Origin: Salinivirgaceae bacterium
Lineage (GTDB): Bacteria > Bacteroidota > Bacteroidia > Bacteroidales > SZUA-534
Assembly (NCBI GenBank): GCA_017617355.1
Contig: JAFZWI010000018.1
Coordinates: 1-58,273 of the forward strand
Direction of reading: 5' to 3'
DNA length: 58,273 nucleotides
The position numbers and the translations under genes are program-made. Below the pieces are notes generated by a model. That model ran no database searches. It saw only the letters and a list, made by a program, of their open reading frames with translations, and was not told the origin of the DNA. Positions 135 through 4,500 of the stretch are shown in pieces (positions within the stretch are counted from its first letter, which is position 1; each line of letters starts with the position of its first letter).

Positions 135-911
135 ATGACAAAAAAGTTTTTTTCAATGGCGATGCTCGCAATGCTTGCAACGGCGTTTGTGGCTTGCGAC
201 AATGGTGATGATGACAATGAAAGTCAAAGTTACAAAGGTACTACAGGCGGACACGAATGGGTCGACCTTGGCCTCACCAGTGGCAATCTTTGGGCGACAT
301 GCAATGTTGGCGCAACCAACCCTTGGGACTATGGCAATTATTACGCATGGGGTGAAACTGAAACAAAAAACAATTACAGTTGGGGAACCTACAAATATTG
401 TAATGGTTCATACAACTCGCTCACAAAATATAATGATAAAACAAATTATGGCACAGTTGACAACAAAACAACTCTCGAATCAGCTGACGATGTTGCTGCT
501 GCCGTTTTTGGCGCCGATTATTCAATGCCAACCACAGCCGATTGGGACGAACTAAGCAATCAGTGCTATTGGGTGTGGACAACAAACTACAACGGGCAAA
601 ACGTAAGCGGCTACATAGTTTATCGTGCAAAATCTGAAGGCGACAAGGGTGTCAAAGTTTATGCTGACGGCACAGCGTTGGCTTCATATTCGTTGTCCGA
701 TGCCCACATTTTCCTTCCCGCGGCAGGTTTTCGCAACGATTCGGACCTCAACCTTGCGGGCAGCTACGGCTACTATTGGTCGAGCTCGCTCGACGAGAGC
801 AGCCCGCGCAGCGCTCGGTACTGCGCCTTCGGCAGCGACTACGTGGGCCCGACGTACATCGGCGACCGCTACTGTGGGTTCTCTGTTCGTCCGGTTCGGC
901 GCACGAATTAA
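135..911 (+). CDS. FISUMP/DUF1566-like lipoprotein, candidate DGR target
   Basis: A secreted lipoprotein of 258 residues. The ATG at 135 opens a lipoprotein signal (MTKKFFSMAMLAMLATAFVAC) with lipobox FVAC; the upstream in-frame start at 63 lies inside a hairpin and is rejected. The body from GHEWVDLGL to GFSVRPVR matches the Fibrobacter succinogenes major paralogous domain, a C-type-lectin-like fold known among DGR target proteins. The first 620 bases are A-rich with ordinary local codons. From about 759 the codons switch to AGC, TAC, GGC, GAC and CGC, and A falls to roughly 20 of 147 bases. That is the pattern left when A positions of AAC-rich template codons are mutagenised. The ligand is unknown and no reverse transcriptase is in the window. 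Confidence 0.8.
   Translation: MTKKFFSMAMLAMLATAFVACDNGDDDNESQSYKGTTGGHEWVDLGLTSGNLWATCNVGATNPWDYGNYYAWGETETKNNYSWGTYKYCNGSYNSLTKYNDKTNYGTVDNKTTLESADDVAAAVFGADYSMPTTADWDELSNQCYWVWTTNYNGQNVSGYIVYRAKSEGDKGVKVYADGTALASYSLSDAHIFLPAAGFRNDSDLNLAGSYGYYWSSSLDESSPRSARYCAFGSDYVGPTYIGDRYCGFSVRPVRRTN
759..905 (+). other. Candidate DGR variable region
   Basis: This is the C-terminal 49 codons of the lipoprotein. Framework residues typical of FISUMP ends (YYWSSS, then GFSVRPVR) are kept. The positions between them, usually Asn-rich in this family, read Asp, Ser, Arg, Ala, Gly, Tyr, Ile and Cys, nearly all as NNC codons (GAC, AGC, CGC, GCC, GGC, TAC, ATC). Such codons arise from AAC by changing only the A bases. 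The template repeat and reverse transcriptase are not in this window, so the call is inference. Confidence 0.5.
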
Positions 912-1510: not shown

Positions 1511-4500
1511 ATGGGAATCATCGACGGTATCCTTACCAAACTTTTTGGAAACAAATCAGAAAGGGATATTAAAGAAATCATGCCGTATGTGCTTGCAGCC
1601 AATGCCGAATATGAGAAACTGGCCGGCCTGACAAACGACCAACTGCGTCAGCAGAGCCTTGAGCTGCAACAGATAATACAAGACCGTATCAATCCTGAAA
1701 ATCAACAGATTGCCGATTTGCGCCAGCAGATAGAGCAGGAGCAAGACATTGAGAAAAAGGAGGATTTATACAATCAGATTGACAAAGTTGAAGAGGCTAT
1801 CGACGTCAAGATTGCCGATGTGCTCGACGAGCTGCTGCCGCGCGCCTTCGCAATAATCAAAGACACGGCCCGCCGCTTCAAAGAGAGCAAAGAGATTGAG
1901 GTTACTGCCACACAAATGGACCGCGACATTGCCGCCATTCGCGACAGCGTCGAGATTCGCGGCGACAAGGCTATATGGTTCAATACATGGACTGCCGGCG
2001 GCTCGCCGATAACTTGGGATATGGTTCACTACGACGTGCAGCTTATTGGTGGTGTGGCTCTGCATAAAGGCAAGATTGCCGAAATGGCAACCGGTGAAGG
2101 AAAAACACTTGTGGCAACGCTTCCGGTTTTCCTTAACGCACTGACACACAGAGGTGTTCACATGGTTACGGTGAACGACTATCTGGCAAAGCGCGACGCC
2201 GAGTGGATGGGCACCCTCTACGAGTTCCATGGCTTGACCGTTGACTGCATCGACAAGCACCAGCCAAACTCTCAAGAGCGCCGCAAGGCTTATCAGGCTG
2301 ACGTAACGTTTGGAACCAACAACGAGTTCGGTTTCGACTATCTGCGCGACAACATGGCCGTCAGCCCCGACGACCTTGTACAGCGCCGTCACAACTACGC
2401 CATTGTCGATGAGGTTGACTCGGTATTGATTGACGACGCCCGTACGCCGCTTATCATTTCAGGTCCTGTGCCAAAAGGCGACAACCAGCTGTTCGACAAT
2501 TTCAAACCGCAGGTGCAAAAGCTATATCAGGCTCAGCGCGACCTTGTTACAAAACTGTTGGCCGACGCCAAGAAACTCATCAGCGAAGGTAACGAGGAGG
2601 AGGGCGGAAAGCTGTTGCTGCGTGCCAACAAAGGCCTGCCAAAGCACAAACCGCTTATCAAATACTTGAGTGAGCCGGGCGTGAAAGTTCTGATGCAGAA
2701 AACCGAAAATTTCTACATGCAGGACAACAGCAAAAACATGTACCTCATCACCGATGACCTTTACTTCATCATTGAAGAGAAACAAAACGCTATTGAGCTG
2801 ACTGACAAGGGTATCGACCTTATTTCGTCGGACACTGAAGACAAGAATTTCTTTGTGCTGCCCGATGTCGGAGCTGAGATAGCCGAACTGTCGCAGAAGA
2901 ACCTGACAACAGCCGAGCTTGCTGAGCAGAAAGACAAAATTCTTCAAGACTATTCGATAAAAACCGAGCGCGTTCACACTATAAACCAGTTGCTTAAGGC
3001 TTATGCGATGTTTGAGCGCGATGTTGAGTATGTGGTTGTCGACAACAAAGTGAAGATTGTGGATGAGCAGACGGGCCGTATTATGGAGGGCCGCCGCTAT
3101 TCCGACGGTCTGCACCAGGCCATTGAGGCGAAGGAGAACGTGAAGGTTGAGGCAGCCACACAGACGTTTGCCACTATCACTCTGCAGAACTATTTCCGCA
3201 TGTATAAGAAACTTGCGGGCATGACCGGTACCGCCGAGACCGAGGCTGGTGAGTTCTGGAACATCTACAAACTCGATGTTGTTGTGATTCCTACCAACCG
3301 CCCCGTGCAGCGTATTGACCATGACGACCTTGTATACAAAACCGCTCGTGAGAAATACAACGCTGTTATTGCTGAGATTATCAAACTTAACGAAGCAGGC
3401 CGTCCGGTGCTTGTGGGTACAACATCTGTCGAGATATCGGAACTTTTAAGCCGAATGCTGAAAATGCGCGGCATCAAGCATAACGTGCTGAACGCCAAGC
3501 AACACCAGCGTGAGGCCGAGATTGTGGCCGAGGCTGGTAAGACCGGCACCGTTACCATTGCCACCAACATGGCAGGCCGTGGTACCGACATCAAGCTGAC
3601 GCCTGAGGTGCGTGAGGCTGGCGGTTTGGCTATTTTGGGCACCGAGCGCCATGAGTCACGCCGCGTCGACCGCCAGTTGCGTGGCCGTGCCGGACGTCAG
3701 GGCGACCCGGGTTCGTCGCAATTCTTCGTCTCACTTGAGGACAACCTGATGCGCCTCTTCGGTTCCGACCGCATAGCCAGCATGATGGACAAACTCGGCA
3801 TTCAGGAAGGCGAGGTTATCCAGCACTCAATGATATCGAAATCGATAGAGCGCGCGCAGAAGAAAGTGGAGGAGAACAACTTCGGCATCCGTAAGCGCCT
3901 GCTCGAGTACGACGATGTGATGAACAACCAGCGCGAAGTAATCTACAAACGCCGCCGCCACGCTTTGTTCGGCGAGCGGCTGCAGGTGGATATCGCCAAC
4001 AACATTTACGATGTGTGCGAGCAAATGGCCAACGAGTACAAAGACGCCAATGACTACGAGGAGCTGAAACTTGCCAACTTCCGCACTTTGTCTATCGAGA
4101 CTCCGTTCAGCGAGGAAACCTTCCATGAGGAATCGCCAGTGGAGCTTGCCGACCAGCTTTACAAGGCTGCGATAGAAGCCTACCAACGTAAATCGCTGCA
4201 GATACAGCAGCGCGTATGGCCGGTGATTAAAAATGTGTATGAGACTCAGGGACAGACTTATACCAATATTGTAATACCGATTACCGACGGTCTGAAGACA
4301 TATAATATTGTTACCAATCTGAAAAACGCCTACGAGTCGGAAGGAAAGGATTTGGTTACATCTATCGAAAAGAGTATCAGCTTGTTGACTATTGATGACG
4401 CTTGGCGTGAGCATCTGCGCGCAATGGACGATTTGAAACAATCGGTTCAGAACGCCACCTATGAGCAGAAAGACCCGCTGTTGATTTACAAGTTTGAGTC

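Follow-up and report, generated by a model that had tools for sequence, protein, structure and literature searches.

The window analysed here (the whole stretch of 58,273 nucleotides, which is the entire contig C91 of an 82%-complete draft genome, 157 contigs and 2.56 Mb in all) opens with a gene whose last part changes abruptly in composition. The question raised by this locus is whether that part is a variable repeat (VR) written by a retroelement of the DGR type and, if so, where the template repeat (TR) and the reverse transcriptase (RT) are, and whether the region is still being rewritten. Genomes, contigs and loci are referred to by our own G, C and L numbers.

The gene and its 3' end

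The open reading frame (135-911, on the forward strand like all the window features described below) was read from the ATG at 135 and codes for 258 amino acids. A signal peptide with a lipobox ending at Cys21 (MTKKFFSMAMLAMLATAFVAC, 135-197) was recognised by eye, and it is on this reading that the label of putative lipoprotein rests. From about 237 on, a C-type-lectin-like domain is predicted from a structure model of 237-908 (mean pLDDT 90.4) and its structural neighbours; Foldseek returned zero matches at E ≤ 0.001. The first-pass annotation had described a fixed framework of the FISUMP fold here. The framework is indeed common to 26 equal-length VRs of the genus, but the FISUMP model TIGR02145 does not list the window protein at E ≤ 0.1 (two other weak matches appear in one listing and none in another). 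The same model matches five of 21 genus alignment members (best 1.2e-6) and, below cut-off, two real TR frames.

The switch in codon usage at about 759 and the accompanying drop in A, both reported earlier, are real. Between 759 and 905 only 20 of 147 bases are A (13.6%), against 187 of 624 (30.0%) in the preceding part of the gene (135-758), and just 0.4% of all 147-base stretches of the contig hold 20 or fewer A on the same strand. Third codon positions are C in 59% of cases and A in 0% inside the region, and C in 30% and A in 23% before it. The varying codons had been described as nearly all NNC, and direct reading gives NNC in 16/16 at the 16 positions that we took as variable; the two-fold NNY codons among them all end in C (10/10), compared to 25/52 in 150 upstream codons (P = 0.003). 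The limits of the region, on the other hand, need revision. In three of four complete DGRs of this type the TR-VR repeat begins at or just before the F-L-P codons and ends at about the stop, and for this reason the VR of the window more likely extends from about 711 to 911 than from 759 to 905. The statistics given below were calculated on a core of 40 codons (777-896), in which variable NNC codons are set among framework codons.

Substitutions in the genus and at the adenines of foreign templates

Related genes are found in the genome of the window: one on C109, whose repeat and flank are 76% identical in DNA, and two on C53, of which one stops about 170 bases short of the contig end. In the genus they are widespread too. 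The repeat has DNA matches in 10 of 11 genomes and related proteins occur in all 11 (88 protein matches in all); nine of these genomes reach a completeness of 90% or more with contamination no higher than 5%. We fetched 60 regions holding the stronger of the 88 matches, which gave 56 ORFs (two of them plainly not FISUMP genes), 36 with a recognisable core and 26 with the 40-codon core. These 26 cores, on which the VR statistics are based, include that of the window and three near-identical orthologues (G002:C38, G008:C233 and G007:C13), and the upstream comparison used 25 of the genes.

Many framework codons are fixed in the 26 cores even at silent positions (TCG in 26/26, CTC in 25/26, CGC in 24/26). 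Most of the variable codons have the form NNC, their first two positions taking as many as four different bases; at variable first and second positions A accounts for 39%, G for 29%, T for 22% and C for 10%. Of 293 NNY codons 247 have C as their last base, versus 589 of 1295 upstream. Not one of 40 near-invariant columns of the cores is A, compared to 62 of 197 upstream in the same genes (P = 2e-6), and the ratio of differences at first plus second to third positions, (p1+p2)/p3, is 2.18 in the core and 0.90 upstream. Against a simple DGR reading stands the fact that, when all 26 cores are compared, differences are about equally frequent at third positions and at the other two (mean differences per pair 14.9, 13.4 and 13.1 at positions 1, 2 and 3). 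This happens because the silent positions of some framework codons vary between groups, for example in Ala, Arg and Pro codons near the core ends, a variation that would fit several templates or drift.

A more direct comparison is possible with the real templates of other families. When 393 genomes of the order were searched with a template inferred from the genus VRs, matches appeared in at least five (a lower bound, since two candidates were scored per genome), three of them outside the genus. The A-rich matches in G357:C3 and G365:C16 are template repeats inside an open frame that continues into the RT, while in G393:C92 the template adjoins the VR and an RT-profile match lies on the same locus, though the RVT_1 search listed none for G393. 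A TR-VR pair is also present in G018, of the window's own family, which was found through the RT search. In these pairs the TR-VR mismatches fall at A in 17/18 (G018), 25/30 (G357), 20/21 (G365) and 30/34 (G393) cases. Where the template is inside the reading frame of the RT, as observed in the DGRs of L163 and L164, the template peptide could therefore be an N-terminal extension of the RT. As a separate observation, G357 carries on C5 a second TR-VR pair (L179, at 2654-2856 and 3133-3335 in the coordinates of the fetched piece). Template A accounts for 29 of its 30 mismatches, and the only RVT_1 match of the genome is on C3; the pair looks like a template and target served in trans.

We used the TRs of G357, G365 and G393 to define A sites, leaving out one of the 40 core codons, which has no partner there. 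Between the VR of the window and that of G005:C63, a gene of another species, 20 of 38 A sites differ by the G357 template and only one of 79 other sites (P = 3e-11); with G365 the figures are 19/35 and 2/82, and with G393 19/38 and 2/79. Immediately before the VR, 63 of 149 third codon positions differ between these genes. A similar contrast is seen inside one genome, where G005:C108 and G005:C63 differ at 19/38 A sites and 2/79 others, and where the N-terminal part shows 37 synonymous and 34 non-synonymous changes in 388 codons while the C-terminal part shows 1 and 21 in 66. Within the window's own genome the contrast is less clean, with differences from C109 at 23-25 A sites and at 12-14 of 79-82 non-A sites, and from C53 at 23-25 A sites and 8-10 non-A sites, and therefore more than one template or later drift is needed. 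We read the VRs of the window and of G005:C63 as probably written from one template in two species, after the remaining parts of the genes had diverged or had been exchanged. As their frameworks are nearly identical while the upstream genes are not, the shared template would have acted not very long ago.

Altogether, the VR lies at the 3' end of the gene, its framework is shared beyond the rest of the gene, and the differences from relatives fall mostly at template-A sites (those of foreign templates, and less cleanly so in the own genome). The proposal of a DGR-type variable region in the C-terminus of the lipoprotein is thus borne out, and from these sequence comparisons we consider that the end of the gene is very probably of DGR origin.

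One gene of the genus departs from the others. G010:C48 (L195, about 1446-1650) has a VR in a genome without a DGR-type RT match, and its framework codons are, by eye, nearer the G357 and G365 templates than those of its own genus, even if the VR poorly fits each of the three templates. Horizontal transfer and a misbinned contig are alternative explanations.

Template repeat, reverse transcriptase and downstream hairpins

There is no RT in the window near the VR, and the term orphan that had been applied to it fits. The first-pass annotation went further and placed a DGR elsewhere in the same genome, and here the searches do not agree with it: the 82%-complete assembly gave zero RVT_1 matches and, with the G357 RT as query, zero matches to the RT type of the FISUMP DGRs, and DNA, pattern and inferred-template searches for a template repeat recovered only VR genes, their flanks and the downstream gene. 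Of a complete DGR cassette, RT and template repeat, the draft genome has yielded neither. A DGR may nevertheless be unassembled, because this is a draft of 157 contigs at that level of completeness.

The 11 genomes of the genus gave the same picture, with no template of this type by DNA, pattern or inferred-template searches. In the family, 7 of 20 genomes contain a 33-base template pattern (up to 3 mismatches), at 13 places altogether, but these were discarded as templates, for all fall within protein matches and are therefore VRs; of 23 places matching the inferred template in 10 of the 11 genus genomes, 22 are within protein matches and the remaining one, in G010:C48, is a VR in an ORF. RVT_1 matches exist in three of the 11. 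Those of G005:C81 and G010:C20 were rejected as DGR RTs, lacking the DGR motif; the former (L036), a 414-aa RT with GTPTAP and YSDD, reaches the cut-off of no NCBIfam model, the best-placed matches being group II RT and Drt3a. The sole DGR found in the genus genomes, G007:C52 (L040), has its own template, with 18 of 20 TR-VR mismatches at A, and was set aside as a source since its target is different and phage-like and its template is unrelated to the FISUMP repeats. With the G357 RT as query the enzyme was found in the sister genera G011 and G018 (40-41% identity), and within the genus only two pieces of the G007:C52 RT (34-35%) and one G003 match (E 0.009) with a stop inside, which a profile search did not recover at E ≤ 0.1. 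Complete DGRs of the right type are located in another genus of the family, in other families and in viral contigs. Neither the viral-contig nor the genome-contig collection contains the exact A-rich template pattern (0 places in each); the framework tail is at 0 places in the former and at 3, in two MAGs, in the latter, and the window VR has no match among the phage or plasmid collections.

A trace of the enzyme was nevertheless detected in the window's own genome. A profile of five RTs matched (i-E 1.8e-6) a 112-codon ORF on the minus strand of C109 (17784-17446). This ORF shares its strand with the C109 VR, from which it is 0.3-0.5 kb downstream, contains the motif NSYLGILSH and aligns to positions 335-387 of the 395 of the profile. 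With a second profile, built from 79 viral RT sequences and the five cellular ones, the value was 3.9e-7. What is left amounts to about 50 codons from the C-terminal end of an RT. From this remnant behind the VR we conclude that a cis DGR probably once stood at the C109 locus and has been almost wholly lost. The profile searches covered the fetched loci; among these, G001:C99, with a VR and the same downstream gene as C109, gave no RT match at E ≤ 5, and no remnant of an accessory protein was found in those of the genus.

On the target side there is more to be seen. An inverted repeat at 955-984 folds into a hairpin of 12 pairs with one internal mismatch, its inner stem (GCGCAC/GTGCGC, 962-977) closing a TCGA loop 50 bases past the stop. 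The DNA fold of 906-1010 has a z of -2.77, a value equalled by 1 of 200 shuffles. Three control stretches of equal length from the window gave 0.75, -1.98 and -0.15, the second of them coming close to the value of the hairpin stretch. We consider 955-984 a candidate target-recognition hairpin. A second GC-rich hairpin, found by hairpin search, follows at 1010-1027 (CCGCATC/GATGCGG, loop CCGA). GC hairpins with a 4-nt loop are present behind the VR in 35 of 61 DGR loci from other families and viruses versus 17 of 249 random stretches, but behind the stop in only six of the 56 genus ORFs; those of C109, G005:C108 and G001:C99 lie 41-65 bases past it. For phage DGRs, PMC3240598 describes a GRNA loop consensus, which the TCGA loop of the window does not resemble. 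The hairpin of C53 was not accepted as a recognition element, being terminator-like although its GAAA loop fits GRNA, and a TACC motif beside the hairpin was dropped, as it appears in only one of the 61 DGR loci and in two genus ORFs.

Beyond the hairpins, 1040-1234 is the 3' end of a gene, judging from its translation and from a 78-79% DNA match to C45 and C66. These contigs carry two longer genes, with open frames of 556 and 563 codons, and it is their C-terminal part that is matched. We take this gene to be S74-chaperone-like. The piece starts abruptly past the VR flank, as though cut by an insertion or deletion.

Fate of the variable region and related systems

The reading that we favor is the following. 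An AAC-rich template repeat would have been reverse-transcribed with errors at its adenines, by a presumed copying mechanism, and the cDNA would have taken the place of the gene's 3' end. The outcome would be framework codons accompanied by NNC codons for the varied residues. These residues would sit on the C-type-lectin-like domain, presumably at the cell surface and in contact with a ligand. The window would retain the target side, VR and downstream hairpin, while template and RT are gone from the assembled genome. The VR would now be a frozen variant, one of several VR-bearing genes kept after the DGR of the genus decayed and presumably dormant. We give a probability of roughly 0.6 to the VR being now orphaned or frozen and no longer diversified, the arguments being the missing machinery, the C109 remnant and a paralogue whose core residues, from WSSSL to CNGF, are identical in three species (G000, G005 and G004). 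This last fact does not support the suggestion of a surface lipoprotein that is hypervariable today. Of the original proposal of an orphan or remote DGR target, then, the DGR-type VR and its orphan condition are supported, and the DGR elsewhere in the own genome and the present hypervariability are not.

There are several alternatives. The strongest, to which we assign clearly less weight although it is a possibility to be taken seriously, is that diversification of the VR continues in trans, driven by a complete DGR absent from the assembly that would reside on a plasmid, a phage or a part of the chromosome left unbinned. The assembly lacks about 18% of the genome, several contigs, C91 and C53 included, end close to VR genes (a proximity that may be fortuitous), and the near-identical frameworks of the window and G005:C63 speak for copying that is not very old. 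Incomplete loci with trans targets are described in Thiohalocapsa (PMC10907252). Besides, viral contigs carry the RT clade. An alignment query (a single-RT query gave zero relatives) found 257 viral relatives, and among the best 80 of these, which were fetched (IMG/VR, L217-L296), 58 have an A-biased repeat pair; the templates shown in frame are Asn-rich and FISUMP-like. However, no TR or RT of this type was found in the 11 genus genomes, nine of them at least 90% complete, and the RT remnant and the unchanged paralogue also count against it. The framework of the window was found in a single viral-contig VR when viral contigs, phages and plasmids were searched; it is in none of the templates of the best 80 of the 257 loci, where the inferred template scores best with a match of 71% over 142 bases, higher values being limited to shorter pieces. 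Named records hold RT relatives at E ≤ 1e-30 in 3 plasmids and 15 phages, and these (28.6-39.4% identity) are more distant than those of the viral contigs.

Some features of the viral loci deserve mention on their own. The RT loci hold 69 ORFs that resemble the accessory proteins of G357 and G365. A FISUMP alignment query of the viral contigs gave 13 loci, in which no RT-like motif was seen by a motif scan that also missed known FISUMP genes. One IMG/VR contig of 11.5 kb (L156) has a FISUMP-like gene with a VR resembling those of the genus, and the RT profile found nothing better than E 20 on it.

Much less probable is that ordinary recombination or gene conversion moves ready-made C-termini between paralogues, with no retroelement involved. 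A crossover-like case does exist: G009:C9 and G001:C48 differ at one of 456 upstream bases and at 17 of 120 in the core, with the first half of the VR the same, the second half different and unrelated flanks downstream. We dropped it as a case of partial retrohoming, since with unrelated 3' flanks a crossover is equally likely. However, pairs within a genome share on average 2.3 of 16 variable codons and do so without clustering (runs minus expected 0.02 in 28 pairs, and -0.18 over all 290 pairs, those sharing none or all excluded), and shuffling does not produce differences concentrated at template-A sites. Least credible of all is a local GC-rich codon bias with positive selection on a binding surface, for although the region is GC-rich, its variable residues could make up such a surface and third positions vary across all cores, the (p1+p2)/p3 ratios given above, the 1-2 differences in 79-82 non-A sites (some of them silent) that separate the window from G005:C63, against 63/149 upstream third positions, and the prediction of the varying sites by the templates of other families all weigh against it.

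The frozen VR fits into a wider scenario, which we offer as speculative and rather improbable as a whole: this genus of gut Bacteroidales would have lost the retroelement but would still pass on a standing stock of the lectin lipoproteins written by it, and new variants would arise only when a phage or plasmid brings in a DGR of that clade, which then acts in trans on the genes of the host. DGRs, their lectin-fold targets and trans targets are already known. What is new, as far as the literature searched shows, is that FISUMP-like targets are spread over a whole genus with neither template nor RT, accompanied by an RT remnant; the search found no paper joining DGR with FISUMP or 'Fibrobacter succinogenes major paralogous' (bioRxiv being outside its scope). 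Surveys of DGRs locate targets by a nearby RT, and a large metagenome survey says that remote targets would escape it (PMC8144416), whereas the targets described here were recognised without an RT, through the substitution pattern, which was then checked with real templates from foreign genomes. The results suggest that DGR-written genes can outlive the element and spread through a genus, and the reach of DGRs may therefore be underestimated. They also make it testable whether phage-borne DGRs of the same clade rewrite host genes.

The nearest complete counterparts are the FISUMP-type DGRs of G357:C3, G365:C16 and G393:C92, of the same order, and of G018:C289, of the same family. Like the window they have a related target domain with a C-terminal VR, and the first three also have a GC hairpin behind it; unlike the window, which has neither, they carry TR and RT within about 1-2 kb (the RT of G393 by profile only), the template being A-rich with mismatches at A. 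The IMG/VR DGRs belong to the same RT clade, and differ in the templates already described for the best 80 of the 257. DUF1566 has been reported as the commonest DGR target domain (PMC6642488). In Thiohalocapsa PB-PSB1, PMC10907252 describes incomplete DGR loci, trans or remote targets and decayed cassettes, and its targets without their own RT or TR are like that of the window, although some of them have a matching TR elsewhere in the genome and none was found here. Also among the closest known systems are Mtd of phage BPP-1 and variable protein 1 of Treponema denticola.
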